A stretch of DNA of 64,000 nucleotides from a virus: positions 16,847 to 80,846 of IMG/VR virus record IMGVR_UViG_3300044713_000107. One strand, given 5' to 3'. The notes beneath the pieces were generated by a model, which saw nothing but the letters and a program-made list of their open reading frames with translations, was not told where the DNA came from and made no database searches. Position numbers and translations under genes: made by a program. Within the stretch, counting starts at the first letter, position 1, and every line of letters starts with the position of its first letter. Positions 1-18,196 of the stretch are shown here, in pieces.

Positions 1-1205
1 TGCCCCGGGTCAGCCGCGACGGTCACACCAGGCGGGATCACGCGGTTGGCGGCCAGGAGCGCGGCGGTGTGCGGGCCATGAGGATACGTTCCTGAATTGA
101 GGAGATCAGAGAGACCCTGCGGGAGACTGAACGCGGCCACGACCGCCGCAGCGACCAGAACGCCAGGGGCCTGACGCGCGTAGGAGCGGGCCCACGGGCG
201 CGGCGACATGATCAGACGCTGCCAGCCGTCGGCCGCGGCGAGGAACACGATCGGCATCAGCGGGGCCGAGTAGTGCCAGTACGTGTTCCAGTACTCGGGG
301 TTCGACGATTCGAACCGCCACAGCAGTGTCGGCACGGCGAGGAGAAGCAGCGGTGAGCGCAGGCACATGAACCCGGTGATGCCGAGGACCCAACCCAACG
401 TCTGCACCTTGATGGCGGGCCAGACGAGCGCGGCCAGCAGATGCCAGCCACCGCCAGGAAGTTCCGTGAAGTAGGCGTAGTGGTGGTGCGGGTTGAACAT
501 TGGGATCAACACGAACACCTCCGCGAGCGTCGCACCCACGCCAACAAGGGCGAGGAGCGACCCGAGGAGCCGGCGCCCATGCTGCCACGCCAGCAGCACG
601 CCCAGGGCGGCCACTGTCAGGCCCAAGTCCTCCTTGACCAGCAGCAGCGGCAGCGACCACACCGCAGCCCGCTCCGGACGACCCAGCAGCAACTGACGGC
701 CCACCACAGCCAGCACGGGGACAGCGAACGCGATCTCGTGGAACCCCGCAGCGACAGCCTGTGCCAACCCCCACGCCAGCCCGTATGCGACGGTCAGGCA
801 CGCGCCCCGGGAGCGGCCCAGGAGACGCACTGCGGTGTCGCCGACCACGCCGACTGAGCTGCCGAAGAGGACGGCCTGCGCGGTCACGAGCATCAAGGGC
901 GACGGCCACACCCACCACACGGGCGCGAGTAGGGCAATGATCGGCGACCAGTGATCACCGAGCAGATTCATGCCCTTGATCGGATCCCACGGCGCGCCAT
1001 GCGTCGCCCAACCCTTCACGGCCTCCGTGAAGATGGCCGTGTCGTACGTGTAGTCGTCGCCGCGGACCGTCCGGCACACCGCGAGGATGACCCAGGCTGC
1101 GGTGAATGCGAACGCGAGCATGACTGGCGTCGACGGGCGATGCGGGAGGCGCGCCTTGAGCGGGTGCAGGGCGATGGGTCTGGCAGGGTCACTAACGGAA
1201 GTCAC
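1..1205 (-). CDS. DUF2079-type polytopic membrane protein, 3' end missing
   Basis: About 400 residues are visible and the gene runs off the left edge. It starts at GTG 1205-1203, four bases after an AGGGGG ribosome-binding site. A hydrophobic segment follows a short basic leader, then a soluble loop with YDTAIFTEA and GDHWSPII, then several further transmembrane segments. This pattern matches the DUF2079 family, a GT-C-like membrane family of unknown substrate common in actinobacteria. The loop motifs D-x-x-x-F and H-W-S-P are family hallmarks. It lies downstream of the transfer-like operon in the same direction. Function beyond family membership is unknown. Confidence 0.75.
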   Translation of the reverse strand, partial: MTSVSDPARPIALHPLKARLPHRPSTPVMLAFAFTAAWVILAVCRTVRGDDYTYDTAIFTEAVKGWATHGAPWDPIKGMNLLGDHWSPIIALLAPVWWVWPSPLMLVTAQAVLFGSSVGVVGDTAVRLLGRSRGACLTVAYGLAWGLAQAVAAGFHEIAFAVPVLAVVGRQLLLGRPERAAVWSLPLLLVKEDLGLTVAALGVLLAWQHGRRLLGSLLALVGVGATLAEVFVLIPMFNPHHHYAYFTELPGGGWHLLAALVWPAIKVQTLGWVLGITGFMCLRSPLLLLAVPTLLWRFESSNPEYWNTYWHYSAPLMPIVFLAAADGWQRLIMSPRPWARSYARQAPGVLVAAAVVAAFSLPQGLSDLLNSGTYPHGPHTAALLAANRVIPPGVTVAADPG

Positions 1206-1272
1206 AATTCCCCCTGATTGCTTTCACGTTCCGTTTAATCAAGGTAGACGGCAGCACCGACGAACGAGCGGG

Positions 1273-1866
1273 TTACTGCCAGGGCGCGGGGCCGGTCCGG
1301 CTGGCCCAAGCGGCGAGGGCGTGTTCGTCGAGGAGCCGTAGCCCGACCCGCTTACCGAACGAGGCAGCGTCCTGCGTGAACGACGACGTGGTCACGACCG
1401 CCGCCAACTGCGCGCCGTGGATGTCGCGGTAGGTCCCGTTCACGGCCTGCAAAGCGGGGGACCGGACGGGGTTGCCGCGGGCGTACCGCTTCGCCTGGAT
1501 CAGGATCCGGCGCCCGTCCGGGGCAGTCGCGAGGACGTCAGCGGCGAGGTCACCGCCTCCGCCGACACGCTCGACGTTGCGGCATCCGTCGCGGCGGCAG
1601 AGGTCGGCGAGGGCGTACTCGAACTGGGTGGGGTCCATCTGCTGAAAGCCGACGATGGCGCGGGCCCGGGTGAGCTTGTGGCGACGGTGGTGGTGTCGGC
1701 GTCGCACGATCAGGGCGCTTGCCGCGAAGCAGCCGGCCGTGCACAGCACGACAGCGAGCGGGTGCTGCAGGATCGGCCACGCGACCGCGAACAGGACCAG
1801 GAACGCGATCAGACCGGGGCCGGCGTGGTGCCGGTGCCTCCGTATCCGCCTCACTGCCCTCTTCAC
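1273..1866 (-). CDS. Mrr-type restriction endonuclease domain protein with two N-terminal membrane segments
   Basis: A 197-residue protein starting at GTG 1866, whose GTGA overlaps the stop of the upstream gene. After a basic leader come two hydrophobic segments (about residues 15-30 and 35-50), an Arg/His-rich linker, then a C-terminal Mrr_cat domain. The domain begins MDPTQFEYALADL and carries the PD-(D/E)XK-like core: an acidic residue in GGDLAADVLA followed by ILIQAKRY (Q-x-K). Mrr-like nucleases cleave modified DNA, but membrane-anchored versions are also widespread and uncharacterised. Its place at the end of the transfer operon suggests a role at the membrane during DNA transfer or exclusion. 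The role is inferred; the domain is clear. Confidence 0.75.
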   Translation of the reverse strand: MKRAVRRIRRHRHHAGPGLIAFLVLFAVAWPILQHPLAVVLCTAGCFAASALIVRRRHHHRRHKLTRARAIVGFQQMDPTQFEYALADLCRRDGCRNVERVGGGGDLAADVLATAPDGRRILIQAKRYARGNPVRSPALQAVNGTYRDIHGAQLAAVVTTSSFTQDAASFGKRVGLRLLDEHALAAWASRTGPAPWQ

Positions 1867-2306
1867 CGCCTGCCCCCGATGCTGAAGCTGGAGTTGTCGC
1901 CGATCTTTACGTTGGAGATCCGGATGCCGCCCGCCACCTTGAGGGCGACGATCGCGACTGCGGCGAGCGCCACGGCGATGCTGATCGCGACGACGGCGTG
2001 CTCGGCCATGCTCAACCCCTTGAAGAAGACCCACGATCCGCACTCGACGAGCGCCAGGCCGGCGCACCAGCAGAACCCCATGAAGCCGCATCCGTGCATG
2101 CGCGCGGGCAGCGGGTCGTAGGCGGGAAGCGGCTGGGGTTCGGGGTCGGGCTGGTAGTAGGCGATGCCGTTGGCGTCGTGGAGGACGCGGACACGGGCCG
2201 GGGCCGGGATGAGCGGCTGCGGCGTGTAGACGGCCGGGGTGCTGGTGGGCTGCGGGTCTTCGTACGCGGCCCAGTCGAAGACCTCCTCGCTGCGGTGGTG
2301 CTGCAT
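1863..2306 (-). CDS. Membrane protein of the transfer operon (Spd-like)
   Basis: A 147-residue protein whose ATG at 2306 overlaps the TGA of the FtsK-like gene (TGATG), so translation is probably coupled. The N-terminal half is Pro-rich and soluble. The C-terminal half has two hydrophobic stretches (about residues 55-75 and 82-105) followed by a short polar tail. No family is recognised. Small membrane proteins beside traB in Streptomyces plasmids (Spd proteins) take part in intramycelial plasmid spread, and position makes that role plausible here. Confidence 0.6.
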   Translation of the reverse strand: MQHHRSEEVFDWAAYEDPQPTSTPAVYTPQPLIPAPARVRVLHDANGIAYYQPDPEPQPLPAYDPLPARMHGCGFMGFCWCAGLALVECGSWVFFKGLSMAEHAVVAISIAVALAAVAIVALKVAGGIRISNVKIGDNSSFSIGGRR

Positions 2307-4453
2307 CACTGCTCCTGGATGTGGTCGGTGTGGATGTAGTTGGTGCGCTCCCCGCCCGGCTGCACGATCTTCGGCTCGGCCTTCAGCCACGTGGTGACGG
2401 TCTGCCGGGACGGCGCCTTCGCGTTCGGGAACACCGCGCGGAAGGTGTCGAGGATGCCCTCGGGGTTGATGCCTTCCGGGCCGGAGGAGCGGACGATGCC
2501 GTAGACCTGGGGCCAGCGGTCGTCGCTGCTGATGCCGGGGGTGGGCGAGTTCGGACTGGCTGCGGGCGCGGGGGTGTCGTCAGTGGGGGGCGTCCAGACG
2601 CCACCGGCGCCTTCGACGATGTCGCGGAACTGGCGCTCCAGGTCGGCGTCACGGCTGGCGTTCTCGTCCATCGTCTGGTGCAAGTCCCGCTTCGCCGCAT
2701 CCGCCTGGTCGATCACAGACTGCGCCTCGGGAGCCAGCGGCCCGGCCTCCGGCTTGCCCCAGTCGGCGGTGACGCTACGGCGGCGCTCGGGCCGATCCCC
2801 GACGATGCTCGTCAGGCCTTCCTCAACTGGGAACGGCGCGGAGCCGAGGCCGAAGAGGTGGTCCGTGTTCTCCCACCGCTTCTCGTAGGCGTCGCCTGCG
2901 GCTTTGCGGGACAGGTCGTCAAGGTCGGGGTGGCGGTCGCTGGTGGCCTTCACGATGTCGGCGATCTGGTTCGGCAGCATCCGGTACGCCTTGAACGGCC
3001 GCGCGGGCTCGTCCAGGATCTTCACGAAGCCGCACCCGGGGTAGGGGGCGTCGTCGGTGCTGATCCGGTCGGACCAGCCGAACAGGTACGACATCTCCCG
3101 CTCGTCGGACTTCATGCCGATCTTCAGGCCGGACTGGGCCAGCAACTGCGGCTCGCTGATCACATCCTGCGTGGCGCGCAGCGCGGTGATGAGCGCGTTC
3201 ACGGCAACGGCGCGGGCGAGCTCGACGACCTGGATGAGGGTGTCGCCGGTCTCCTTCAGGATCTCGTTCTTGCGGGCCTTCGGGGAGAAGATCTCCGCGA
3301 TCTCATCGCCGACGATCATGATGCCGGGGACTGCGGCGCACACCGGCAGCTTGTCGTCGTTCGCCTCCAACTCCAGGTGCTTGTAACCCGGCTTGCGGGC
3401 CTTCGCGATCCGCAGCGCGGCCTTCGCCATCGCCAACGCCTTCGCCGGAGTGTCCGCAACCCAGTCGATCGGCGGCTTACCCGGGCGCCCGGCCTTCTCC
3501 CACGCGTGCAGCCACGCCAGCGCGAGACCACCGCCGTTGAGGTCGATCACCCACGTGATGTTGTCGGTCATGCGGACCAGGCCCGCGACCTCCACGTTCG
3601 ACAGGTTCGTCTTCCCGGAGCCCTTACGTCCGGCCATGAGCGTCGACAGCTGCCGCAGTGACGGAGCAACGCGCGCACCGTCCCGGTACACGCCCATCGG
3701 CAGGCCGTCGTTCAAAGACAGCGGCGAGTAGTCCGCCGGGTAGGGCTCATCCCCGGCGAGCCGGTTCACGGTCGCCACGTTGATCAGCACAGCACCGCGG
3801 TGCGCACCCGGGCCGACCTCAACCCCGCAGCCCTCGGGCAGCTTCGCGTCGGCGGCGAGGCCGTCCTCGAACGCCTTGAAGTCACGCCACTTCGTGCCGT
3901 TGGAGCACTCCCCATCGAGGGTGAACCCGCCGCCGGACTCCCACTGCTCAACGCCGACGATCTGCACGGTCGCACTGGTGCACACCCGGGTCAGACGCTC
4001 GGTCCACTCGTCGGCGACCGCGCGCCGCTTGGCGTCCATGCTGGCCGCACGCTCAATCGCCTCGAAGCGGGCCCGTTCGTCGGCCTTCACCTCCTCGTGG
4101 TGGCGTGCGCCCTCGATCGCGGCACCGAGACCGATGCCGCCTGCGATCAGCGCGCCAATCGCCTTGCCCGTCCAGGGACCTTCAACGGTCGCCCACGAGC
4201 ACCAGCCGCCGACACCCAGCCACGTGGCGGCACGCATGATCAGGGCTGAGCGGGGGATCCGCTTCTTCCGTCCGGCATACATGCTGCCGACCAGTCCGGC
4301 GCCAGCAGCACCGGCGAGCCAGCCGGGGCCGAGGTGGGCAAGGTGGTGATGGGCGAGTTCGTAGTCGGCCCAGGCAAGCGTGAGGCTCGTCCAGGTGGCG
4401 TTGATGGGGCCGGCGACGGGGCCGTGTCCGGCGTCCCAATCGATGTGCACCAC
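2306..4453 (-). CDS. traB: FtsK/SpoIIIE (TraB-type) DNA translocase
   Basis: A 715-residue protein starting at GTG 4453 with AAAGGA about ten bases upstream. Two hydrophobic segments near residues 40-110 anchor it in the membrane. The motor has Walker A GRKGSGKTN (about 275-283), a WVIDLNGGG strand and a Walker B-like GIMIVGDE (about 377-384). The C-terminal about 200 residues are charged and Pro-rich and end in a possible winged-helix segment. In Streptomyces, one such hexameric ATPase (TraB) moves double-stranded plasmid DNA between cells. Its neighbours are Spd-like proteins and a separate gamma-like domain, which supports a transfer role over cell division. The symbol rests on architecture and context only. 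Confidence 0.8.
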   Translation of the reverse strand: MVHIDWDAGHGPVAGPINATWTSLTLAWADYELAHHHLAHLGPGWLAGAAGAGLVGSMYAGRKKRIPRSALIMRAATWLGVGGWCSWATVEGPWTGKAIGALIAGGIGLGAAIEGARHHEEVKADERARFEAIERAASMDAKRRAVADEWTERLTRVCTSATVQIVGVEQWESGGGFTLDGECSNGTKWRDFKAFEDGLAADAKLPEGCGVEVGPGAHRGAVLINVATVNRLAGDEPYPADYSPLSLNDGLPMGVYRDGARVAPSLRQLSTLMAGRKGSGKTNLSNVEVAGLVRMTDNITWVIDLNGGGLALAWLHAWEKAGRPGKPPIDWVADTPAKALAMAKAALRIAKARKPGYKHLELEANDDKLPVCAAVPGIMIVGDEIAEIFSPKARKNEILKETGDTLIQVVELARAVAVNALITALRATQDVISEPQLLAQSGLKIGMKSDEREMSYLFGWSDRISTDDAPYPGCGFVKILDEPARPFKAYRMLPNQIADIVKATSDRHPDLDDLSRKAAGDAYEKRWENTDHLFGLGSAPFPVEEGLTSIVGDRPERRRSVTADWGKPEAGPLAPEAQSVIDQADAAKRDLHQTMDENASRDADLERQFRDIVEGAGGVWTPPTDDTPAPAASPNSPTPGISSDDRWPQVYGIVRSSGPEGINPEGILDTFRAVFPNAKAPSRQTVTTWLKAEPKIVQPGGERTNYIHTDHIQEQ

Positions 4454-4492
4454 GGCTGTGCAGTCCTTTCAGGAGGTGAGGGTGAGCTGGGG

Positions 4493-5905
4493 TCAGGACA
4501 GGTTGGTCGAGACGTCCCACATGCGCTCGCCAGCGATGCCCTTGCGCGGGTTCTCCAGGCGGGCGAGGTCGACCTGGTGGAGGCTCTTGAACGCGGGCTG
4601 CAGCTCGGCGGCGAGCTCGGAGGCCTTCAGCTGGAGACCGTGGATCTGCTTCATCAGGTCGACGATCTGCGGGTCGAGGGGGTGCTGGGCGTCGGCCTTG
4701 TCGACGGTGACCCTCATGGCCTCGGCAACGAGCTCCAGGCCCTCCTGGAGTCCGGCGAAGTCGGCGCCGACCTGGAGCATGCCGGTGGGTTCGTAGGCGG
4801 CTGCGGCGCGGGCCATTTCCATGGCGGGGCCGGTGAAGTGGTGGCCGGGCATGAGGGTTCCTCCGTTGGCGGTTCGGGTGATCTGGTTGGTGGGCTTGCG
4901 GACGACGGACGAGATGGTGGGTTCGGGCTTGGCCGGGTCGGTGGTCTTGTTCTTGCGGTTGGCGCGGTGCTGCTTCCATGCGGCCCAGGCTTTGGCGAGG
5001 CCCTTCTTGATGGACCAGTGGCGCAGCGTGCCCCACACGCCGGTGCGGATGGCGCGGAGGGCGTCGGCGGTGAACCCGCGGGACTTCCGTCCGGCTTTCT
5101 TCGCGGCAGCCCACGACTTGGTGCGCAGCGGCTTGCTGGTCTTCCACGCCTTCGAGGCACCGGCACCGGCGAGGCGACCGGCACCCGCGGCGGCGCGCCC
5201 GACGTGACCAGCCGTGGTCTTCGCGGCACGGCTGGCGGCGGACGGGCTCGTCTTCGAGGACTTCTGGGAGCGGTTCGAGTTGCTGCCGTTGGAGCCGGCG
5301 GAGCTGCCTCCATCGCGGCGGTTCCTGGTTCGCTGCGAACCAGGACCGCTAGCCGTGCTTCCGGTTCCGCTTCCGTGCGAACCAGCGCCCGCAGGCGAGC
5401 CGGAACCAGACCGCGAACCACCGCCGCTGGAACCTGCGGAACCCGTTGAGGTACGCCACGGCGAACCAGCCGCCGAGGTTCGCGAACCACCCGACCCGGA
5501 ACCACGCGAACCCCAGCTCGAACCCGTGCCGGAACCGCCCCACGAACCGCCGCGTGAACCACCGGAACCGAACCCGCCGGAACCGAGCGAGGACCGGCGC
5601 CGAACCTGACGGCGCCGGCGAACCACAGCCGCCACCGCCCCCAACGCAACCACCCCGCCAGCCGCGGCCAGCGCGGGCAGACCACCCGCCTCCGCCGCAG
5701 CCGTCAGGCCCATCGCGGTCGCGTTGCCGGTCGCAGCGAGCGCCGGCCCGGCGGGGATGCCGCGCTTCTTCGCGGGCTTCTCCTTGGCCTCCTTCGGCTC
5801 CGCAGCCTGCTGCCCGGCGGGTACAGCCCACCCGGCGGTGAGAGTCGGCGCGGGGATCGTGATGGTGGCCGGCTCCGGGGCGGGCGCGACCTGAGTGTCC
5901 GCCAC
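4493..5905 (-). CDS. Gly/Ser-rich membrane protein of the transfer operon (SpdB-like)
   Basis: A 470-residue protein starting at GTG 5905 behind AAGGGAGG. Order of parts: a Pro/Ala-rich leader, a hydrophobic segment (about residues 68-95), a very basic RRRRQVRRR patch, a long Gly/Ser/Thr repeat tract (about 105-200), a basic Lys/Arg region, then a C-terminal helical domain of about 140 residues beginning MPGHHFTGPAMEMARAAAAY. It resembles the SpdB2 type of Streptomyces conjugation proteins, which bind DNA and assist spread. Gly codons preceding Ser in the tract are mostly GGT, giving many GGTTC pentamers; see the repeat entry. Confidence 0.65.
   Translation of the reverse strand: MADTQVAPAPEPATITIPAPTLTAGWAVPAGQQAAEPKEAKEKPAKKRGIPAGPALAATGNATAMGLTAAAEAGGLPALAAAGGVVALGAVAAVVRRRRQVRRRSSLGSGGFGSGGSRGGSWGGSGTGSSWGSRGSGSGGSRTSAAGSPWRTSTGSAGSSGGGSRSGSGSPAGAGSHGSGTGSTASGPGSQRTRNRRDGGSSAGSNGSNSNRSQKSSKTSPSAASRAAKTTAGHVGRAAAGAGRLAGAGASKAWKTSKPLRTKSWAAAKKAGRKSRGFTADALRAIRTGVWGTLRHWSIKKGLAKAWAAWKQHRANRKNKTTDPAKPEPTISSVVRKPTNQITRTANGGTLMPGHHFTGPAMEMARAAAAYEPTGMLQVGADFAGLQEGLELVAEAMRVTVDKADAQHPLDPQIVDLMKQIHGLQLKASELAAELQPAFKSLHQVDLARLENPRKGIAGERMWDVSTNLS
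5280..5605. repeat. Dense GGTTC/GAACC pentamer cluster inside the SpdB-like gene
   Basis: About twenty GAACC or GGTTC pentamers fall in roughly 320 bases. They encode Gly-Ser steps on the minus strand, but GGT is used before TC-type Ser codons although GGC would be expected at this GC content. The same pentamers form the palindromic repeats in the neighbouring DUF2637 gene, so a DNA-level signal such as a motor recognition site is possible. Confidence 0.6.
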
Positions 5906-5987
5906 AGCGGGCCTCCCTTGGTGTCGTCGTCGGTGTCGTCGTCAAGCGGGATGGGGTGTCATGGGCGCAGGTGGAGGGGGTGATCTA

Positions 5988-6018
5988 GGTGGTGTCGTCG
6001 GGCGACGACGACACCACC
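5988..6018 (-). terminator. 13-bp perfect stem-loop between two Spd-like genes
   Basis: GGTGGTGTCGTCG at 5988-6000 pairs with 6006-6018 around a five-base loop. It lies just after the stop of the DUF2637-type gene and about 80 bases before the next start, so it may attenuate readthrough. There is no clear T-run. Confidence 0.5.
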
Positions 6019-6022
6019 ACCA

Positions 6023-6913
6023 TCAGTTGGGCGGGCTCTGCTCGTTGGCCTCAGACCAGGCGGTGCGGGCCTCGACGAGCCGGTTGTAGGAGGTGGTCTT
6101 GGACCATCCGGTCTCGTCCATGACGAACTTGAGCTTCACCGTGTCGAAGCCGTGCTCGTCGATCAGGTCGAGGATCTGCCGGACCTGCTCGGTGACAGGC
6201 GGTATGGCCGGCTGCTGTCCCGAGTTGGCGGCCGGCGCGAGCGCAGGGCGGGCAGCGGCGGCGTTCGGCCTGGTTCGCTTGGGCTGGTTCCGGACCAGGC
6301 TCGGGCCAGTAGCCGGAACCTGCTTCAGGGTGGGCTGCTGAACCGGGTTCGGAACCGTCGACGGAACCTGCGGTGCTGCCGGGTTCGGAACCTGGGCGGT
6401 CGTCTGGCTCACGGGGTTCGGAACCTGGTTCGCCGGGGTTCCAGCGGGCTGGTTCGGAACCTGCGCGGTGGGGTTCGCCGGAACCTGAACCTGTGCCGTC
6501 ACCGCAGGGTTCGGAACCGTCTCCGCGAGCGCGGTTCGGGATTCCGCTTCGGGGTTCGCATGGACTACCGTCTCGGCGAGCGCGTGGACTCGCCAGATCG
6601 TCAACGGAACCAGGATCGACACGAACGCGACGAGCGTGACGGACACCTGAACCTGTCCGGCATCGAGGAGACGGGCGGCGATCTGAGCGCACGACATGAT
6701 CGCGAGAGCGAACGCCAAATCCGGGCGACGCCCAGCACGAACCGCAGCCACGACGTACGCGTCGATCGCGAGAGGAAGCGCCGGAGCAACCCACGACGGG
6801 GCGCCGATGATCCGGGCCAGCTGCCACTCGGAGACTGCCGTCCACACGACGCCGGCTGCGACCGACAGGCGGACGAGCCAGACAACGGCCGTGTCCCTGG
6901 CTCGTTCGCTCAT
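6023..6913 (-). CDS. DUF2637-type membrane protein with C-terminal helix-turn-helix
   Basis: A 296-residue protein starting at ATG 6913 (MSERARD), with a GAGGGAGAA ribosome-binding site. Four hydrophobic segments occupy about residues 8-110, the DUF2637 pattern seen beside traB/spd genes in Streptomyces plasmids. A long Pro/Asn/Val-rich linker (about 120-225) repeats V-P-N-P and carries five copies of GGTTCGGAACC in its DNA. The C-terminal about 65 residues (EQVRQILDLIDEHGFDTVKL...WSKTTSYNRLVEA) look like a winged-helix or HTH, so a membrane protein that touches DNA. Role in transfer is inferred from neighbours. Confidence 0.7.
   Translation of the reverse strand: MSERARDTAVVWLVRLSVAAGVVWTAVSEWQLARIIGAPSWVAPALPLAIDAYVVAAVRAGRRPDLAFALAIMSCAQIAARLLDAGQVQVSVTLVAFVSILVPLTIWRVHALAETVVHANPEAESRTALAETVPNPAVTAQVQVPANPTAQVPNQPAGTPANQVPNPVSQTTAQVPNPAAPQVPSTVPNPVQQPTLKQVPATGPSLVRNQPKRTRPNAAAARPALAPAANSGQQPAIPPVTEQVRQILDLIDEHGFDTVKLKFVMDETGWSKTTSYNRLVEARTAWSEANEQSPPN
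6346..6518. repeat. Five copies of palindromic GGTTCGGAACC
   Basis: Identical 11-mers (arms GGTTC/GAACC around one G) start at 6346, 6382, 6415, 6451 and 6508. They encode V-P-N-P in the linker of the DUF2637-type protein. Streptomyces TraB motors bind short repeats at clt loci, so this cluster next to the motor gene is a clt candidate. Confidence 0.6.
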
Positions 6914-6937
6914 GATGGTTCTCCCTCTCGGGTAGGT

Positions 6938-6963
6938 GCCGGGCAGCGGGGGGACTGCCCGGC
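6938..6963 (-). terminator. 9-bp GC-rich hairpin
   Basis: GCCGGGCAG at 6938-6946 pairs with CTGCCCGGC at 6955-6963, in the gap between the small gene ending at 6985 and the DUF2637-type gene starting at 6913. It probably attenuates transcription. Confidence 0.5.
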
Positions 6964-6984
6964 GGACTGTGGTGGGCTGGCGTG

Positions 6985-7236
6985 TCAGGAGGTGGTGTCG
7001 TCGGAGCTGGGCCCGGTCTCGATGGCGGCGGCGATGCGGGCGTATGCGGCGGCGAGGGCGGTGTGGGCGTCGACGGTCCGCATCTGGTGGGCCTGTTCGC
7101 GCTCGGGGTAGCTGCGGCGGAGGAGCTTCGCGGCTTCGTGGGCGTGTTCGACGGCTTTGGTGAGGAGCTCCTCGCGCTTGGGTTGGTGGTCGCCGAGGTT
7201 GATGCGGACTCGGCTGGTGGGCTTGTTGTCGGCCAT
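6985..7236 (-). CDS. Small basic helical protein of the transfer operon
   Basis: An 83-residue protein starting at ATG 7236 with GGAAGGA upstream. It is mostly helical and charged: a basic N-terminus (SRVRINLGDHQPKREEL) then an Ala-rich amphipathic helix region. No family is recognised. Its position between the gamma-like protein and the DUF2637-type gene suggests a small accessory transfer (Spd) protein. Confidence 0.6.
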   Translation of the reverse strand: MADNKPTSRVRINLGDHQPKREELLTKAVEHAHEAAKLLRRSYPEREQAHQMRTVDAHTALAAAYARIAAAIETGPSSDDTTS

Positions 7237-7368
7237 GCGGGTCCTTCCGTCGGGGTGGGTGGCTTGGGGTCCCGGGCGCGGGCTTTGCGGTGGGGGAGCC
7301 GTGTGGACTCGCGCCCGGGGGTTGGCGGTCGGGTGGTGCGGCCGGTTTCATCCGCACGGCCCGACCAG

Positions 7369-7599
7369 TCAGTTGGCCTGTTGTGTCAGGCGTTGGTGTG
7401 CTTCCTGCGGGTCGAGGAGGACGTCGCGTGCGAGCGTGCCGCGTGAGGGTCCGACGATGCCGTGGGCGGCGAGCTGGTCCATGAGCCGTTCGGCGGTGGA
7501 GAACCGGATGCGGAGCTTGCGCTGGAGCATGTTGGTGGAGCCGAAGCGGGTGGTGGTGATGATCTCGGCGGCCTGGAACAGGAGGTCGTCGGCGGTCAT
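7369..7599 (-). CDS. Stand-alone FtsK-gamma-like winged-helix protein
   Basis: A 76-residue protein that is almost entirely one domain. DDLLFQAAEIITTTRFGST, NMLQRKLRIRFSTAERLM and DQLAAHGIVGPSRG follow the FtsK gamma winged helix in order: helix, QR-(x)-RI recognition helix, AxRLxDQLexxGIVGP. In bacterial FtsK this domain is fused to the motor C-terminus and reads KOPS. Here it is a separate gene four genes upstream of the motor. ATG 7599 overlaps the stop of the preceding gene (TGATG). It probably directs the translocase to DNA sites; the partner is inferred. Confidence 0.75.
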   Translation of the reverse strand: MTADDLLFQAAEIITTTRFGSTNMLQRKLRIRFSTAERLMDQLAAHGIVGPSRGTLARDVLLDPQEAHQRLTQQAN

Positions 7600-7949
7600 C
7601 AGAACGCGGCCCAGGCGTGCGGCTGCCCAAGGACGATGCGGTCGTAGGTGCGCTCGGTGCGCTCGTGGGAACCCTCGGCTTCGACGGCGGCGAGCTGGGC
7701 ACGAACCTGCTGGCGGGTCATCGAGACGGGGCCGTGTGGGGCGGTCGGGATGGAGTCCCAGTCGAGGTCGTGGCTCAGCGGGCGGGCGGTGAGCGGCCGG
7801 GCGGGCGGAGCCGGGCGCGGGCCGAGACCGGAGGGCTTGCGCGGGCCAGGGACGCGGGGGATGGCCGGCTTGTCGTCGTCGGTGTCCCAGCCCTGCGGGG
7901 CTGCTGTGCTGCTGATGGTGCTGGCGATACTCTCCATGTGTCTGCCCAT
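7599..7949 (-). CDS. First gene of the transfer operon, unknown function
   Basis: A 116-residue protein if ATG 7949 is used; ATG 7937 is an alternative. The N-terminal two thirds is Pro-rich and probably disordered. The last about 50 residues, with SMTRQQVRAQLAAVEAEGSHERTERTYDRIVLGQ, are predicted helical. No family is recognised. It leads the minus-strand operon and follows the divergent control region with the large dyad. Confidence 0.55.
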   Translation of the reverse strand: MGRHMESIASTISSTAAPQGWDTDDDKPAIPRVPGPRKPSGLGPRPAPPARPLTARPLSHDLDWDSIPTAPHGPVSMTRQQVRAQLAAVEAEGSHERTERTYDRIVLGQPHAWAAF

Positions 7950-8042
7950 TCGCTTCGGAGTGGTTGGGCGGCTTGGCCCGGTCGGTGTTCGCGCACTGGT
8001 CGGGCCGTCTTGCTGAGAACCGGGTGCGGTTCCCATGAGACA

Positions 8043-8083
8043 AACCCTAGGGCTTGTTCGTAGGCATGGCAAGCCCTAGGGTT
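8043..8083. promoter_or_regulatory. Perfect 14-bp inverted repeat, putative operator
   Basis: AACCCTAGGGCTTG at 8043-8056 is repeated inverted at 8070-8083, with a 13-base spacer. Each arm contains the palindrome CCCTAGGG, so four half sites are present. It lies between the transfer operon (minus) and the HTH regulator gene at 8128 (plus), as the Kor operators do in Streptomyces plasmids. It is most simply the operator for that regulator. Confidence 0.75.
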
Positions 8084-8127
8084 GGTGTCGTTGGATCTGC
8101 ACTCCCCAAAGGGAAGGGAGCGCGGGC

Positions 8128-8451
8128 GTGTCGAAGGAGCCCAAGGAGGTGGAGAGGCTGTTGGAAGCCATCGCAGCGTTCGAGGCCATCGATGACGACG
8201 CCGAATGCACGCGCGTCGTGTCTCAAGCACTCAAGGACTGGCCTGAGCTCCACTCGCGCCTTCGCGCGCTGCGGCAGGCCCGTGTGCAGTCTCTTCGCGA
8301 ACAGAAACTGTCGTGGGCTCAGATCGCTGAGATCATCGGAGGCGAGATCACGCCCGAGCGTGCCCAGCAGATCGGCAAGGGCCTCAGTGGCGCCACCCGC
8401 AAGAAGGCCAAGCGGGAAGCCGAGGCCGCGGCGGAGAAGCCGGCCGAGTAG
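8128..8451 (+). CDS. HTH regulator divergent from the transfer operon
   Basis: A 107-residue protein starting at GTG 8128 behind GGGAAGGGAG. The N-terminal half is helical and acidic. Residues about 55-85 (QSLREQKLSWAQIAEIIGGEITPERAQQIGKG) form a sigma-region-4-like HTH; the tail is Lys/Ala/Glu-rich. It is divergent from the tra/spd operon across a perfect dyad, the arrangement of Kor-type repressors that keep transfer genes off in Streptomyces plasmids. It is probably autoregulatory. The repressor role is inferred. Confidence 0.7.
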   Translation: MSKEPKEVERLLEAIAAFEAIDDDAECTRVVSQALKDWPELHSRLRALRQARVQSLREQKLSWAQIAEIIGGEITPERAQQIGKGLSGATRKKAKREAEAAAEKPAE

Positions 8452-8464
8452 CCGCCCGCTGTCG

Positions 8465-8490
8465 CGCCCCGGTGAGCTCTTGCCGGGGCG
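8465..8490 (+). terminator. Intrinsic terminator after the HTH regulator
   Basis: CGCCCCGG at 8465-8472 pairs with CCGGGGCG at 8483-8490 and is followed by TTGTTGTGTT. This is one of the few hairpins here with a T-rich tail on the sense strand. Confidence 0.7.
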
Positions 8491-8498
8491 TTGTTGTG

Positions 8499-8699
8499 TT
8501 ACCGGAACCGCAGCGTGCTGGTGGTGCCGCGGGCGAGCTCGGCCGTGTACATCGCACCCCCGGCGAGCTCGGTGTAGTCGGTGACGGGCTCGCCAGCCTT
8601 GATGAGGGCGACAGCGCAGTCCAGGCACCACGGGGAGGTGGTTTCACGGTCGACGATGACCGCGGCCTGGCCGCAGCTGCCGCACTGGTGCTCCGTCAT
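8499..8699 (-). CDS. Small four-cysteine zinc-ribbon protein
   Basis: A 66-residue protein from ATG 8699. The N-terminus has two CxxC knuckles (CGSC and CLDC) about 20 residues apart, then a short polar tail. It forms a pair with the next zinc-ribbon gene upstream. Such proteins are common in actinophage early regions; function is unknown. Confidence 0.55.
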   Translation of the reverse strand: MTEHQCGSCGQAAVIVDRETTSPWCLDCAVALIKAGEPVTDYTELAGGAMYTAELARGTTSTLRFR

Positions 8700-8710
8700 C
8701 GTTCCTCCGG

Positions 8711-8890
8711 TCATCCCCAGCTGGAACCGCACTGGACGCAGCCCCAGCGGCCACCGCCGGTCTGGTAGGTGCTGCTCGATCCGCAGACTGGGCAGTTCAT
8801 GTCCCGGCACTGGTGGTCGGGCTGGTCCTCGTCGGGCATCGTAGCCGGGATGGTGGTGGTGGTCGGGGGTTCGAGCAGGATCACGCTCAT
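8711..8890 (-). CDS. Small zinc-ribbon protein
   Basis: A 59-residue protein from ATG 8890, which follows an AGGAGG site. The second half has CPVCGSSSTY and WGCVQCGSSWG, a compact rubredoxin-like zinc ribbon. Two genes of this kind sit back to back between convergent terminators. No specific function can be given. Confidence 0.6.
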   Translation of the reverse strand: MSVILLEPPTTTTIPATMPDEDQPDHQCRDMNCPVCGSSSTYQTGGGRWGCVQCGSSWG

Positions 8891-9053
8891 GGGGGTGACC
8901 TCCTGTCGGTGTACAGGCGTGCAGCGGTAGCGTGGATGACTGGCCGTCACCACGTCGTTGCTGCTTGGGATGTCTCAATCCCACCGCGAGCCGGGCCGCA
9001 GCACGATGAGGGCAGGGACCATCTGGAATGCAGGTAGCCGACTGGGGGTTGGC

Positions 9054-9686
9054 GTGGATGTCGTTGGCAGGTGGTCGGCCAGGCGCGCGGTGGCGTTGCA
9101 GTTGGCGATGCGGGCCACGAATGAGGGTTTCGCCGGGGTGCTCGGTATCAGCACCAGGACTGTCGCCGCGTGGCATGCGGCCCCGGAGGTGACGCCTCGG
9201 GAGGAGTTCCAGCAGATCCTCGACACCGCGTTCGAGAAGGCCCCGGAGCAGGTGCGTGCCCGCTACGAACAGCTGGTCAAGACCCCGGCGGCGGATGTGC
9301 AGGCGCTCAGGGTTGCGGTCGCGGTGATCACGCATGAGGGCCGGGTACTGCTGGTGTGCCGCCGCGGCGACGACGCGATCAGCTGGCAGTTCCCGTCCGG
9401 GATCGTAAAGCCAGGCAGCAAGCCCGAGGCCGCTGCGGTGCGTGAGGCGCTGGCGGAGACCGGCGTCCACGTCGCCGTCCAGCAGCACCTCGGCGAACGC
9501 CTCCACCCCGTGACCGGGGTTCAGTGCCACTACCTGCAGTGCAGTTGGCTCGCAGGCGACGCTGCGAATGCGGACCCGGATGAGAACGTGGCAGTGATGT
9601 GGGTCGCGACCGCCGATGTGTCGCGGTTCATCCCAGCGGACAGGATCTACCCGCCCGTCATGGCGGTTCTGGAGGGGAAGCAGTGA
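9054..9686 (+). CDS. HTH-NUDIX hydrolase fusion
   Basis: A 210-residue protein. GTG 9054 is chosen because GGGGG lies five bases upstream and the homologous part starts there. The N-terminal about 75 residues contain an HTH (EGFAGVLGISTRTVAAWHA). The C-terminal NUDIX domain has a box spanning GIVKPGSKPEAAAVREALAETG, matching G-x5-E-x7-R-E-x-x-E-x-G with A for one Glu. NUDIX enzymes hydrolyse nucleoside-diphosphate-X compounds; the HTH suggests a sensor or regulator version. GTGA overlap couples it to a second NUDIX gene. The substrate is unknown. Confidence 0.8.
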   Translation: MDVVGRWSARRAVALQLAMRATNEGFAGVLGISTRTVAAWHAAPEVTPREEFQQILDTAFEKAPEQVRARYEQLVKTPAADVQALRVAVAVITHEGRVLLVCRRGDDAISWQFPSGIVKPGSKPEAAAVREALAETGVHVAVQQHLGERLHPVTGVQCHYLQCSWLAGDAANADPDENVAVMWVATADVSRFIPADRIYPPVMAVLEGKQ

Positions 9687-10075
9687 GCGAGCAGGGGATC
9701 AGCGCGGCGATCATCGTCCACGACGGGCGGGTGCTCATGGCCCGGCGCCGCGTCACGGAGGGCGAGCTGTCGTGGCAGTTCCCCGCGGGCGGCATCGAGG
9801 CGGGGGAGTCGGCGGAGCAGGCCGCAGTCCGCGAGACCGTCGAGGAGACCGGCCTCACCGTCAGCGCGGTGAAGGTGCTCGGGGAGCGCGTCCACCCGAA
9901 GACCGGCCGGCACATGTCCTACGTCGCCTGCACAGTCGAGGGCGGCGCGGCAACGGTCGCGGACGACGAGGAACTTGCTGAGGTCCGCTGGGCGACACTC
10001 GCCGACCTCCCGCAGCTCGTGCCGTACGGCTTGTTCCCGGTTGTGCAGCAGTACCTCGACGCCGAGCTCGCGTAG
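9683..10075 (+). CDS. NUDIX hydrolase
   Basis: A 130-residue single-domain enzyme starting at GTG 9683, overlapping the previous stop by GTGA. The NUDIX box is complete (GGIEAGESAEQAAVRETVEETG, with R-E-x-x-E-E). It resembles MutT-like house-cleaning or NTP-pool enzymes and the C-terminal half of the preceding fusion, so the pair probably arose by duplication. In a phage-like element it may act on modified or alarmone nucleotides; that is speculation. Confidence 0.85.
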   Translation: MSEQGISAAIIVHDGRVLMARRRVTEGELSWQFPAGGIEAGESAEQAAVRETVEETGLTVSAVKVLGERVHPKTGRHMSYVACTVEGGAATVADDEELAEVRWATLADLPQLVPYGLFPVVQQYLDAELA

Positions 10076-10090
10076 CATCCACCGCAAGCA

Positions 10091-10133
10091 CGACTGAGCC
10101 CGACCCCAACTGCCATGGGGTCGGGCTCAGTCG
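10091..10133. terminator. 18-bp perfect hairpin, bidirectional terminator
   Basis: CGACTGAGCCCGACCCCA at 10091-10108 pairs perfectly with 10116-10133 around a seven-base loop. It sits between the convergent NUDIX gene and the phage gene ending at 10143, so it can stop transcription from both sides. Confidence 0.8.
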
Positions 10134-10142
10134 CGTGCAAGG

Positions 10143-10670
10143 TCAGGCTGCGATCTCCCCGCCGCCGAGGTACTCGTCGAACGACGTGCCCATTGCCTCG
10201 CATGCCTCACGCGGATTCGCCGAACCGGGGGCGAGATCCTGAAGCGCGAGCACCTTGTCGCACATCGCCGCGTTGGTGCTGTAGGCGCGCTCCTGCTTCA
10301 GGTACTCCTGCCGCTTCGCCTCGATCGCATCCCAGGACGAGACCTCGATCAGCGCCTGCTCGATCCACTTCTCGCCCGTCTCGGTGGTGCGCCGGATACC
10401 GACGACCGCGTTCTTCGTCAGCTGCTCGCCGTCGTGGGAGAACATGACCTTCTGCTGCTGCACGAACCAGGTCACGACGGCGTTCGAGCCGCGCCGCAGG
10501 ATGTCCGCCTCCAGATCCATCGCCCAGCGCCGCTGAGCCTGGATCGCGTCGCGCCAGATGCTGATGAAGGCAGCGATGCGGTCGGGCGTCCGCTTCGAGC
10601 TGGCGATCACCTCCCGCATCGCCTCGTCGAACTCGTCGTTGTCGACGTCCGACCACCAGGGCTTGCGCAC
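10143..10670 (-). CDS. Phage-type protein of unknown function next to parB
   Basis: A 175-residue protein. GTG 10670 is favoured because a GGAGG inside the end of parB lies five bases upstream; a TTG at 10682 is possible. It is mostly helical with many Trp and charged residues (KPWWSDVDND, RWAMDLEADILRR). No family is recognised. It is cotranscribed with parB, so it may be a partition partner in place of a ParA. No Walker motif is seen. Confidence 0.6.
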   Translation of the reverse strand: MRKPWWSDVDNDEFDEAMREVIASSKRTPDRIAAFISIWRDAIQAQRRWAMDLEADILRRGSNAVVTWFVQQQKVMFSHDGEQLTKNAVVGIRRTTETGEKWIEQALIEVSSWDAIEAKRQEYLKQERAYSTNAAMCDKVLALQDLAPGSANPREACEAMGTSFDEYLGGGEIAA

Positions 10671-10671
10671 A

Positions 10672-11664
10672 TCAACCTCCAACTATCAGGGACAGGCCCG
10701 CGGGGCGCTCCCGCAAGGCTTCGATGCGACCGACGTAGTCGGCCACGGACTTGGCCAGCTGGCGCAGGTCTTCCATCTGGCGCTCGTCGGCGCCGGCCGC
10801 GACCTGTTCCGGGGTGAACATCCCGATCAGGCCGAAGGAACGGGCGAGCTCCTTCTGGAAGTTGTGCTGCCACTGCTTGCGACGGATCTCCTCGGCGGCG
10901 CCGGAGGATTCGAGGTAGTCGCGGACAGGGGCGACCAGGGCGTCGGCTTCGGCCTGCTTGACCTTCTTGAAGGCCGGGTCGACCTTGCCGGTGCGGTCCA
11001 TCACGGCCTGGGCCTCGCGAGCGGCTTCGCGCACCGGCTCGGGTGCCTCCAGGTCGCGGGCGGCCTCGACGACATGCCGGGCCTTCTCCAGGGTCCGGCC
11101 GGACATGCCAGTTGCCTTGGCGATCTGATCCCGAGTCTTCAGCGACGGCTTCGGTGCTTCGGCGGCAACGACGCTCGGTGGAAAATTTCCACCGAGCGTC
11201 GACTTGGCTTCTGGCTCGACGGCGACGAGTACGGGTGCTTCTGGATCGGCGGCTAGGCGCGCCTTTGCGGCTTGGGGGCCGCCGGCGCGCTGGCCCGCCA
11301 GGCGGCGTTCGGCTGCGCGCTGCTCCTCAATGCCGCGGATCCGCTCGGCGTGCTCAACCGCCTCGGTGGGCGTGAATGCCTCGCGCTCGGTGTTCTCTTC
11401 GCCCTCGGCGAGCAGGGCCTCCAGTTCGTCGGCGAGAGACCCGGCGACGTGGGCGTCGATCGTGTCGCGGCCGAGTAGCCGGTGGGCTTCGATGCGCCGA
11501 CCGCCAGCGACGAGGGCGTAGCCGCCGCCGTCGGGCCGGACGACGATCGGCTGGAGAAGCCCTCGCTCTTTGATGGATTTTGCAAGGGAATCGATGTTGC
11601 GCATCTCCTGGCGCGCCCTGTCGCCAATGGTGATGCGGTCGAGGGATATGGCGTTGACGATCAA
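10672..11664 (-). CDS. parB: ParB-family partition protein
   Basis: A 330-residue protein starting at TTG 11664 with GGAGG eight bases upstream. The N-terminal ParB/Srx domain has LAKSIKERGLLQPIVVRP and YALVAGGRRIEAHRLLG, the canonical ParB motif. A middle HTH follows (TRDQIAKATGMSGRTLEKARHVV), then a long helical C-terminus. No parA is found in the window; the downstream 175-residue gene may serve instead. A 33-bp palindrome inside this gene (11169-11201) is a candidate parS. It acts in segregation of the episome or in regulation. Confidence 0.85.
   Translation of the reverse strand: MIVNAISLDRITIGDRARQEMRNIDSLAKSIKERGLLQPIVVRPDGGGYALVAGGRRIEAHRLLGRDTIDAHVAGSLADELEALLAEGEENTEREAFTPTEAVEHAERIRGIEEQRAAERRLAGQRAGGPQAAKARLAADPEAPVLVAVEPEAKSTLGGNFPPSVVAAEAPKPSLKTRDQIAKATGMSGRTLEKARHVVEAARDLEAPEPVREAAREAQAVMDRTGKVDPAFKKVKQAEADALVAPVRDYLESSGAAEEIRRKQWQHNFQKELARSFGLIGMFTPEQVAAGADERQMEDLRQLAKSVADYVGRIEALRERPAGLSLIVGG
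11169..11201. repeat. 33-bp near-perfect palindrome inside parB, candidate parS
   Basis: Sixteen-base arms (11169-11184 and 11186-11201) are perfectly complementary around one central A. The core GTGGAAA-A-TTTCCAC is strikingly A/T rich for this gene. It encodes a flexible STLGGNFPPS segment between the ParB domain and the HTH. ParB proteins bind 16-bp palindromes of similar design, though the sequence is not the chromosomal parS. Confidence 0.65.
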
Positions 11665-11891
11665 GAGCGGACCTCCGCAGACGTCTGACCGATACTCACT
11701 ATGAGTGAACGACTGGGGGATGCGCAAAGAGCCCGAGGCTGACGTGCTATGGAGTCCCGAATGGTGTGACTTTCCGGGCGCGCTGACGGCCCTTCAAGTC
11801 ACACGCAGTTGCGACGCTCGCAAAAGCGCCCGCGCTCCGAAGAGAGCAGGCGCTTCGTTGTGCTCAGTCCCGCGGTGGGCGATGAAACAGG
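11665..11891. other. Upstream region of parB with dyads
   Basis: No gene is seen. The region holds a small dyad ACTCA-CTA-TGAGT (11694-11706), just upstream of the parB ribosome-binding site, and a wider one, GTGTGACTT (11764-11772) with AAGTCACAC (11796-11804). Either could be an operator. The left end of the region also carries the terminator of the next gene. Confidence 0.5.
11824..11855 (-). terminator. Terminator of the 11892-12311 gene
   Basis: AAGCGCC at 11824-11830 pairs with GGCGCTT at 11849-11855, with further partial pairing inside. On the minus strand the stem is followed by TTTTGC. Confidence 0.6.
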
Positions 11892-12311
11892 TCACGCCCT
11901 GTTCAGGAAGATCTTCGCTCCGTTGTGGCACAGGATCGTCGCCCCGTACCCGACCGCGGGCGGTGCTGGCCGGCGCGAGTACAGGTCCACGGCCGCGATC
12001 TCCCCGGCGTCGGCGTCGAGGACCGCGGCGATGAGCGCTGCTTCGAGGTGCTCGGGCGTGCCGGGAGTGCCGCTTACGGCAGGGGCGTCGGGCTTCTCGC
12101 CGAGGACCGGCTCTCCCTCGGGCTGGTCGTACTTGTCGCCCGGCGCGGACGCGGCCACGACCTGCCAGCGCGACGTCTTCCCGCCCGCCTGCACCGTCAC
12201 CAGATGCGGGCGCAGACTCCGGCCGTCAGTCTCCGGCGTCAGCTCGGCAGTCACCCCATCGAGCGAGTTGGCGGCGGACACAAGCAGGCGGGCGAAACGA
12301 TCAGGGCGCAT
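11892..12311 (-). CDS. Hypothetical protein downstream of the XRE regulator
   Basis: A 139-residue protein starting at ATG 12311, ten bases after the stop of the XRE regulator, so in the same operon. It has an N-terminal helix (RFARLLVSAANSL), a beta-rich middle, a Pro-rich linker and a C-terminal Ala-rich helix. No family is recognised. Confidence 0.5.
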   Translation of the reverse strand: MRPDRFARLLVSAANSLDGVTAELTPETDGRSLRPHLVTVQAGGKTSRWQVVAASAPGDKYDQPEGEPVLGEKPDAPAVSGTPGTPEHLEAALIAAVLDADAGEIAAVDLYSRRPAPPAVGYGATILCHNGAKIFLNRA

Positions 12312-12320
12312 GCGGGCACG

Positions 12321-12917
12321 CTACCCCTCAGCCTCGGGCGGCTCCGGCGGGACCTGCCGCGGACGGCCACCGACACCACGCTGCACGCCAGGAGTGCGCC
12401 CACGGTTGCGGGAGATGCGCGCGCTGAGCTCCTCGGTCACCTTGTGCGACGGGTCCGGCTCCTTGGTGGCCCGATACTTCCGCAGACCCGGTGCCCTTGA
12501 CGTGGTCTGAAAGTCGTTCCATACCGCGCCGTCGTCATCAGCGGGCAAGTCGAGCGGCTGCTCGGCGAGGGCCCACGACCAGGCGAGGTCGGCGCTCACG
12601 CTGCCGTGGCCGGTGATCTCGATGTCGCTGTTGGGGTCGGCAGTCGGGGGCAGGAGTAGCGCGACCGGACTGACGCGGAGTGCGACGGCCAGCGCCATCA
12701 GGTCGTCGACGTCGACCTTTCGGGCTCGGGACTCGATGCGGCTGATCGCGCTGGGGGCGATCGGCCGGCCTGCGGCGGCGAGCAGCTTGGAGAGGTCGTA
12801 GGTCGACAGACCGCGGACTTCTCGTAGGGATACGAGGTTCCTCGCGACTGCCTGACCTGTGGGTCCGACCTCGTTGGTCTTGCGCGTTGCCTTCTCGCGC
12901 GCTTCGTCCGCTGCCAT
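12321..12917 (-). CDS. XRE-family transcriptional regulator
   Basis: A 198-residue protein. The HTH spans about residues 25-85 (LVSLREVRGLSTYDLSKLL, PIAPSAISRIESRARKVDVDDLMALAVAL), followed by a linker and a basic, Arg/Pro-rich C-terminal tail. It is divergent from the excisionase-like gene at 13023 across a dyad at 12979-12997, so it probably represses that operon. Confidence 0.75.
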   Translation of the reverse strand: MAADEAREKATRKTNEVGPTGQAVARNLVSLREVRGLSTYDLSKLLAAAGRPIAPSAISRIESRARKVDVDDLMALAVALRVSPVALLLPPTADPNSDIEITGHGSVSADLAWSWALAEQPLDLPADDDGAVWNDFQTTSRAPGLRKYRATKEPDPSHKVTEELSARISRNRGRTPGVQRGVGGRPRQVPPEPPEAEG

Positions 12918-12978
12918 GTCCGCAGCATCCCATGTCTATGTGCCCGCGCCTATCGACACGGGCCGCCATCCACGTATA

Positions 12979-12997
12979 TGCTGCGTAATAAGCAGCA
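12979..12997. promoter_or_regulatory. Operator-like dyad between XRE and excisionase-like genes
   Basis: TGCTGC and GCAGCA flank the AT-rich GTAATAA. The site sits 26 bases before the start of the plus-strand operon, where a repressor would block it. Confidence 0.5.
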
Positions 12998-13022
12998 CAC
13001 ACCATCAAGGAAAAGGCATGTG

Positions 13023-13247
13023 ATGTTGGAACTGGCGCGTCCCCTCAGGGACGACGAGCTGCTGACCCCCATCGAGGTCAGCAAAATGACCAAGCTCGCC
13101 CTGCGCACCCTCGCCGACAAGCGATGGAAGGGAACGGGCCCCGACTACATCAAGCTCAGCCCCGGCAGGAACGGCCACGTGCGTTACTGGCGCAGCGCCG
13201 TCCTTGCGTGGCTGAACGAACACGACGACCTCGCGGACGCAGCATGA
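13023..13247 (+). CDS. MerR/excisionase-like HTH protein
   Basis: A 74-residue protein. ATG 13023 is chosen for the AAGGAAAAGG six bases upstream. LLTPIEVSKMTKLALRTLADKRWKGTGPDYIKL and VRYWRSAVLAWL are the helix and wing of the HTH_17/AlpA-excisionase fold. These serve as recombination directionality factors or small regulators. ATGA overlap couples it to the GIY-YIG gene. It could be the RDF for the serine integrase, but the distance (36 kb) makes that uncertain. Confidence 0.7.
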   Translation: MLELARPLRDDELLTPIEVSKMTKLALRTLADKRWKGTGPDYIKLSPGRNGHVRYWRSAVLAWLNEHDDLADAA

Positions 13248-13825
13248 TCGAGCTCGACCGACGTCGGACCGCCGTGTACCGCTTCTACGACGCACGCGAC
13301 AACCTGCTGTACGTCGGAGTGGCAGTGAACCCAAAGAGCCGCTGGTACGGGCACAGGGACGACAAGCCTTGGTGGCCCGAGGTGACCACTAGGACGATCG
13401 AGTGGTTCGACGATCGGCGTGCCGCCGAGCGCGCCGAGTTCGAGGCCATCCAGAAGGAACGTCCTCGCTACAACATCCACCCGACGTTCTGGCCCAAGGA
13501 ACCCGTCGCGGCCGACCCTGACGAGCCCGGCATCGAGTTCGTCGAATGGGTCCGGCGCACCGCACTGGCCAAGGGCTATCGCCTCGGCGAGCGCGGAGCA
13601 ATGCCCGCTCTGGCCCGTGCCGGCGACATGGATCTGAACATCCTGAAGAACTTTCTCGCCCCCAAGGGGCCCACCCAGAAGTGGCGGCGAAGCCCATTCG
13701 TGCCGTATCCGCCGAGCGTTGCGTTGCTCCGTGGCGTCGCCAAGGCATTTGGGCTGCCGCTGGACGACGTGATCATTCGCGCCGGACTCGCGGAGATCGA
13801 CGACTTCACCCGAGGCAAGTCCTGA
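13244..13825 (+). CDS. GIY-YIG nuclease-domain protein with C-terminal HTH
   Basis: A 193-residue protein overlapping the preceding stop by ATGA. The N-terminus has AVYRFYDARDNLLYVGVAVNP (the GIY and YIG strands as VYRFY and YVG), RWYGHRDDKPWW with the catalytic Arg, and a Glu (AEREFEAIQKE region). The C-terminal third (LNILKNFLAP, SVALLRGVAKAFGLPLDDVI) resembles an XRE-like HTH. Such stand-alone proteins occur in many actinophages and may be homing-type or regulatory nucleases. Confidence 0.75.
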   Translation: MIELDRRRTAVYRFYDARDNLLYVGVAVNPKSRWYGHRDDKPWWPEVTTRTIEWFDDRRAAERAEFEAIQKERPRYNIHPTFWPKEPVAADPDEPGIEFVEWVRRTALAKGYRLGERGAMPALARAGDMDLNILKNFLAPKGPTQKWRRSPFVPYPPSVALLRGVAKAFGLPLDDVIIRAGLAEIDDFTRGKS

Positions 13826-13834
13826 ACATGCGAA

Positions 13835-13860
13835 AGGCCCAGCGCGGGAACGCCGGGCCT
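13835..13860 (+). terminator. Hairpin after the GIY-YIG gene
   Basis: AGGCCC-a-GCG pairs with CGC-c-GGGCCT. The upstream CATGCGAA context is shared with the hairpins near 58.1 and 60.1 kb. Confidence 0.5.
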
Positions 13861-14642: not shown

Positions 14643-14651
14643 CACACCAAA

Positions 14652-18194: not shown

Positions 18195-18196
18195 CC

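Follow-up and report, generated by a model that had tools for sequence, protein, structure and literature searches.

A GGTTC/GAACC word array in the coding sequence of a TraB/FtsK-type operon: a candidate docking site for the membrane protein encoded within it

The operon and its word field

The DNA examined here is a 64,000-nucleotide window (bases 16847-80846) of the 80.8-kb IMG/VR virus record IMGVR_UViG_3300044713_000107. The element is a Streptomyces-type phage element and bears, on the minus strand, an operon which in the downstream direction reads P0006, P0005 (an FtsK gamma protein), P0004, P0003, P2 and a TraB/FtsK-like motor. Two adjacent genes of this operon, those of P2 and of the membrane protein P0003, hold a dense field of the word GGTTC and its complement GAACC. 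We consider it fairly probable that this field serves P0003, which is itself encoded within it, as a cis-acting docking array. The features concerned are the following (window coordinates):

2306..4453, minus strand: TraB/FtsK-like translocase P0001 (the motor), 715 amino acids (aa), with the Walker A motif GRKGSGKT and a C-terminal winged helix-turn-helix (wHTH) of its own; array-free
4493..5905, minus strand: P2 gene (P0002, 470 aa), with a membrane segment, a Gly/Ser linker and a conserved helical C-terminus; 30 GGTTC/GAACC words
5272..5624: dense array stretch within the P2 gene, codons ~94-210, Gly/Ser linker
6023..6913, minus strand: gene of the Spd-type membrane protein P0003 (296 aa), with a hydrophobic N-terminal half, a Val-Pro-Asn-Pro linker and a C-terminal helix-turn-helix (HTH); 25 words; proposed array reader
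6041..6196, minus strand: C-terminal HTH of P0003, residues ~240-291, recognition helix SKTTSYNRLVEAR; indicated by AlphaFold2 (AF2), Foldseek and covariation with the word
6272..6557: dense array stretch within the linker codons of P0003
6346..6518: five exact GGTTC-G-GAACC dyads, starting at 6346, 6382, 6415, 6451 and 6508
7369..7599, minus strand: stand-alone FtsK-gamma protein P0005, 76 aa (Pfam PF09397)

An earlier note on this DNA had reported five exact palindromes in 6346-6518 and about twenty pentamers in 5280-5605, and both observations hold. The palindrome GGTTCGGAACC has no further exact copy in the whole 80.8-kb record and, with one mismatch allowed, yields 11 matches vs 1.6 expected in shuffles, while ~22 GGTTC/GAACC words lie within 5280-5606. 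In all, the P2 and P0003 genes hold 55 words over 2.4 kb, where synonymous codons would predict 13.4. The 30 words of the P2 gene compare with 6.2±2.2 when codons are redrawn according to the element's own usage (taken from the motor gene) and with 11.4±2.5 when synonymous codons are permuted within the gene; for the 25 words of the P0003 gene the respective expectations are 5.1±1.8 and 10.3±2.2. Both genes thus exceed both synonymous nulls in the comparison with codon-shuffled expectation that the earlier note had proposed, and the motor gene shows no excess (4 words vs 3.2 expected, synonymous null). Word density reaches 24-26 per kb in the two genes, whereas the remainder of the record has a mean of 2.5 and a maximum of 7 per kb. 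Whole-window counts by dinucleotide shuffle are less informative than the codon nulls and were not relied on.

The same note had ascribed the pentamers to GGT choice in Gly-Ser runs, which is correct for P2, where GGT accounts for 16 of the 23 Gly codons that precede Ser, as against 14% of Gly codons elsewhere, but not for P0003. There, the excess comes from GTT (Val) ahead of Pro or Gln, together with the rare CGA-ACC and other frames; all nine Val codons before Pro are GTT, a codon that makes up 9% of Val elsewhere. Overall, the word is encoded as Gly-Ser, Val-Pro, Arg-Thr, Asn-Pro and others, and in both orientations. Because the same word is written in several frames and amino acids, selection acts on the DNA, and its further appearance as CGA-ACC, xxG-AAC-C and the like means that it is not the by-product of a single amino-acid repeat. 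The words fall mainly in codons 119-213 of P0003, between the membrane part and the HTH, and in codons 94-210 of P2. No fixed spacing or helical phasing of the words was found in general; convergent pairing beyond orientation shuffles was detected in the window (p=0.026) and in a related Streptomyces microflavus plasmid (L111, p=0.001).

The noncoding gap between the P0003 and P2 genes (window 5906-6022) contains an inverted repeat, GTCGTCGTC...GACGACGACACC, and a similar one is located in the corresponding gap of the related locus L066. ARAGORN calls a tRNA-His at window 5585-5659 (minus strand); this looks like a false call, as the GGTTC-rich array resembles the T-arm consensus.

Words and HTHs across related loci

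An initial genome scan with a single motor sequence gave no matches, and alignment-based motor scans led to 73 loci. The word statistics cover 61 non-redundant related loci (loci have handles beginning with L). These motor-based searches returned plasmid, genome and viral relatives, and the relatives' genes are mechanical open reading frame (ORF) calls. For each gene, the most enriched 5-mer was compared with the gene's own synonymous null, with a threshold of p<0.005 per gene, uncorrected across loci. A significant word was present in 29 P0003-type genes, 23 P2 genes and one motor gene, where ~0.3 would be expected per class. At 13 loci, vs 0.6 expected, the best 5-mer of the P0003-type gene also ranked fifth or higher of the 512 in P2; no locus showed this for the motor gene. 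The word is specific to the locus and common to the two genes: eight close relatives use GTAGC, L069 has GTTGC, L028 and L030 have GGTAC, L032 has CGTAC, L029, L035 and L047 have GTGAAC, and there are more besides. Array genes adjoin the translocase and P2 at nearly all loci examined, and the order membrane protein-P2-FtsK is kept in the cultured Hiyaavirus phages Galactica, Keanu and Hiyaa (L093-L095) and in the plasmid-phage pZL12 (L092, ZL12).

L010 (NZ_CP108596.1), a circular Streptomyces plasmid of 51.7 kb that carries a full set of phage structural genes, has the same order. The P2 genes of Galactica and Keanu show an excess of the word CGGACC, and repeated CTGCAGTCAC/GACTGCAGTC-like words are located between spd and P2 in L019, L020 and L070, which are of the GTAGC type.

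The C-terminal 71 residues of P0003 are predicted by AF2, from a three-sequence alignment, to form three helices with a block-mean predicted local distance difference test (pLDDT) score >90 over the core. Foldseek matches to this HTH have weak E-values, and the top ones are mostly DNA-binding HTH proteins (TetR, AsnC/Lrp, sigma region 4). A full-length AF2 model of a GTAGC-type protein has low confidence outside the HTH. Word similarity between loci was then set against protein similarity, with words taken from the P2 gene alone, so that the word and the HTH of the P0003-type (spd) protein come from different genes. The two correlate at r=0.80. Controlling for the motor wHTH gives a partial correlation of 0.74, for the motor core 0.70 and for the membrane part 0.73 (p=0.001 in each case); kinship of loci was handled by these partial Mantel-type tests only. 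The eight GTAGC loci have one common HTH (NSxxQAxKIRxQV) and differing N-terminal membrane parts. For L066, GGTTC was first seen in its P2 gene, and a search with the window HTH then gave L066 as the best match (3e-22); it carries 17 words in each gene, and its membrane part is unrelated to that of the window. In total, GGTTC is present in 5/5 close relatives of the window HTH and GTAGC in 8/8 of the GTAGC type, so the word follows the encoded HTH. Residue-to-base rules within HTH families (T[ST]RQ with GTGGC, SRRH with GGGGC) were considered and are not claimed, the cases being few and the arrays partly weak.

A plasmid search with the 71-residue window HTH alone, as an out-of-sample test, returned plasmids of Kitasatospora fiedleri, Streptomyces californicus and S. 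microflavus. In one plasmid per species, the HTH gene has GGTTC as its top 5-mer of 512, with 22 vs 3.9±1.6, 27 vs 7.2±2.1 and 30 vs 10.4±2.5 expected, and the neighbouring genes are at or near expectation (largest deviation 11 vs 6.0). The arrays of these plasmids extend beyond the stop codon into noncoding DNA, and in the S. microflavus plasmid the continuation holds six GGTTC-N2-GAACC dyads. Since the californicus and microflavus loci are related, this amounts to at least two independent tests, perhaps not three. As judged from these sequence comparisons, the covariation of HTH and word is shown and has passed the out-of-sample test, and P0003, itself encoded in the array, is the protein with which the word covaries. 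The window HTH was not found in three Streptomyces genomes or in one 35-genome genus. Searching 394 genomes for the GTAGC HTH added no clean new test; of the two hits, one resembled L021 by ORF sizes and the other was L108. The latter holds, at 1718-3760, a gene with 13 GTGAGC words (1.3 expected) that encodes a divergent relative of this HTH, making it a candidate for a further HTH-word pair.

In the three plasmid relatives (L109-L111), a long coiled-coil-like extension precedes the membrane part at the N-terminus of the HTH protein. Several P0003-type proteins at the same position (L010, L011, L017) match DUF2637 (PF10935), whereas P0003 itself had no match in Pfam, this family included; a literature search returned no paper naming DUF2637 together with plasmids.

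A docking model and its alternatives

From these patterns we infer that the P0003 HTH would bind the word and that the protein would serve membrane tethering and transfer. P0003 would be held in the membrane by its hydrophobic N-terminal half, with the HTH on a flexible linker, and many HTH copies would bind the ~55 words, some of which are arranged as GGTTC-N1-2-GAACC dyads. The element's DNA could in this way be gathered at the membrane, close to both the motor and the P2 protein, a placement suggested because P0003 appears to be membrane-anchored and the sites are many, and the clustering may single the element out for transfer as double-stranded DNA or for spread from hypha to hypha. Two points favour transfer over partition: the genes neighbour that of the motor, and in pZL12 and SCP2 a tra gene together with two adjacent genes is reportedly required for transfer (PMC3583192). 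The array would be placed in codons of disordered linkers, which can absorb sequence constraint, and each lineage, with its own word and matching HTH, would possess a self-specific site. With slightly more reserve, we also think it reasonably likely that actinobacterial phages and plasmids share a widespread, previously undescribed class of cis site, in which word arrays in the disordered-linker codons of membrane transfer proteins are each read by the encoded HTH, words and HTHs diversifying together as lineage-specific pairs.

If so, there would be a natural recognition code setting which DNA each transfer machine docks. Such a code would bear on how self DNA is selected for double-stranded transfer by Streptomyces plasmids and phages, and on the role of most Spd proteins. 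One stretch of nucleotides specifies both the DNA site and its probable reader, and dozens of lineages provide matched HTH-word pairs, which make docking specificity directly testable and form a natural data set for HTH recognition rules. The case also illustrates that coding sequence, which annotation does not inspect for them, can conceal cis-acting sites of considerable size.

The P0003/GGTTC array would be a new form of clt/sps-type cis site. The sps palindromes of the Streptomyces plasmid pIJ101, read by SpdA2 (Thoma et al., 2014; PMC4170104), are likewise short palindromes within the coding region of a transfer plasmid, bound by an encoded protein, although binding by P0003 is our proposal. 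The sps site consists of two to three copies of one conserved 12-mer (CGTCACGTGACG), whereas the window has its ~55 copies of a lineage-specific pentamer over two genes, and the small SpdA2 protein bears a zinc-finger-like motif, while P0003 appears membrane-anchored with an HTH. Allowing up to two mismatches, CGTCACGTGACG has two matches in the window, fewer than by chance and none in the operon. The TraB/clt systems of pSVH1, pIJ101 and pJV1 and TraA/clt of pWTY27 (PMC3583192) share with our operon an FtsK-like motor with a C-terminal wHTH and plasmid-variable, cis-acting repeat arrays, but clt lies mostly in noncoding DNA and has the motor as its reader, whereas the window array is mostly coding and its word tracks the HTH of a membrane protein. 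The TraB recognition sequence (TRS) GACCCGGA occurs at chance level in the window. StbA of R388 and its stbDRs, two sets of five 9-bp direct repeats around a promoter, resemble the present case as a plasmid DNA-binding protein with a repeat array by transfer genes, balancing stability and transfer; membrane anchoring, proposed for P0003, is not among the features of StbA reported in the portion of the source drawn on here (PMC3098194).

Several points weigh against the docking model. About half of the loci have no significant array by our test, hence the trait is common and not universal; L078, with an HTH 30% identical, lacks GGTTC; and dyad geometry is non-significant against orientation shuffles in L066, L109 and L110. 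Partition or regulation would account for the sequence data almost as well as transfer does, and in pIJ101 the lack of sps sites or SpdA2 reduced stability and left transfer unaffected (PMC4170104). In the alternative built on this last result, the same reader and array would serve segregational stability as a membrane-anchored centromere, which we regard as rather unlikely, though deserving serious attention. The pIJ101 palindromes lie in a coding region and are bound by the plasmid's own protein, the R388 array serves stability and modulates transfer (PMC3098194), and many short sites per cluster are typical of centromeres; however, the array genes keep close to the translocase and P2, some elements have a separate ParA/ParB (pZL12/pSLE1; L014, L015), and partition may matter less to a record with a phage integrase gene.

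The motor could also read the array through its own C-terminal wHTH, as TraB of pSVH1 reads repeated 8-bp motifs at clt via helix 3 of that domain (PMC3583192). The motor protein P0001 has tblastn matches to actinobacterial plasmid proteins annotated FtsK/SpoIIIE, with no FtsK_SpoIIIE match in Pfam, and its conserved wHTH-like C-terminal region is homologous to that of its relatives' motors. This reading is nevertheless very unlikely, as the partial correlation of words with the motor wHTH given the spd HTH is 0.065, and L009, with the motor helix PHAATIGRWL of the GTAGC loci, has a different spd HTH and no GTAGC excess.

The earlier note proposed a split translocase, in which the separated gamma protein would recognise the repeats and so steer the motor. 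That motor and gamma are separate genes is confirmed, P0005 being a clear member of the FtsK gamma family (PF09397; 67.6 bits against a gathering cut-off of 30.6, E 7.6e-19) that also matches solved FtsK gamma chains, though as a separate 76-aa protein where gamma is usually the C-terminal domain of the motor. A recognition array at the DNA level within the coding sequence of a TraB/FtsK-type transfer operon likewise stands; the gamma protein as its reader does not, and we give that reading an even smaller chance than the motor wHTH. Gamma is a known DNA-reading domain whose gene belongs to this operon, and 10 related loci (12 counting duplicate contigs) have it fused to the motor C-terminus. 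However, only the window and L008/L068 have it as a separate gene, most array loci, including L066 with the same GGTTC word, lack it, and the words track the spd HTH. Moreover, at 60% identity to the gamma of chromosomal FtsK from Streptomyces genomes, the window gamma gives no hint of a specificity for GGTTC. Nor was the motor split off from its reader, for it keeps its own wHTH, and fused-gamma relatives have both (in L017, L022 and L081 the motor's wHTH precedes gamma). Gamma and motor wHTH were thus rejected as readers on covariation and absence patterns. P0005 is best seen, from its similarity to the chromosomal protein, as an accessory domain captured from host FtsK; it probably reads host-type polarity sites or meets XerD, and both reading of sites of the FtsK-orienting polar sequence (KOPS) type and contact with XerD are plausible. 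The fusions and separations of gamma in this motor family offer a further clue to how motors get direction.

Least credible is the view that the words have no DNA function and stem from protein repeats, codon bias, tandem duplication or translation pausing: the arrays do lie in low-complexity linkers (Gly-Ser, VPNP) with rare codons, but the synonymous and within-gene permutation nulls are exceeded, the word recurs across frames, amino acids, two genes and the downstream noncoding DNA of relatives, which together rule out codon bias or protein repeats alone, and it covaries with an HTH.

The phage record and the remaining genes

The rest of the operon comprises two small genes:

6985..7236, minus strand: small protein P0004, 83 aa, assigned to the same operon by position; no relatives were found in the other loci
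7599..7937, minus strand: small protein P0006, 112 aa, whose stop overlaps the gamma start; a weak relative is present in L066

The conserved helical domain at the C-terminus of P2 (window 4493-4850) had no match at meaningful score in Pfam or NCBIfam and appears to belong to an uncharacterised family. Bases 1-16846 of the record (L006) and window 49555-51135 hold genes for a major head protein, a head protease-like protein, a large terminase and a phage integrase, and the TraB-type module is accordingly one carried by a phage. Adjoining genes for an RNA ligase (PF09511) and a PNKP-type kinase/phosphatase are located at window 17061-18194 and 18035-19114, possibly forming a phage RNA-repair pair.

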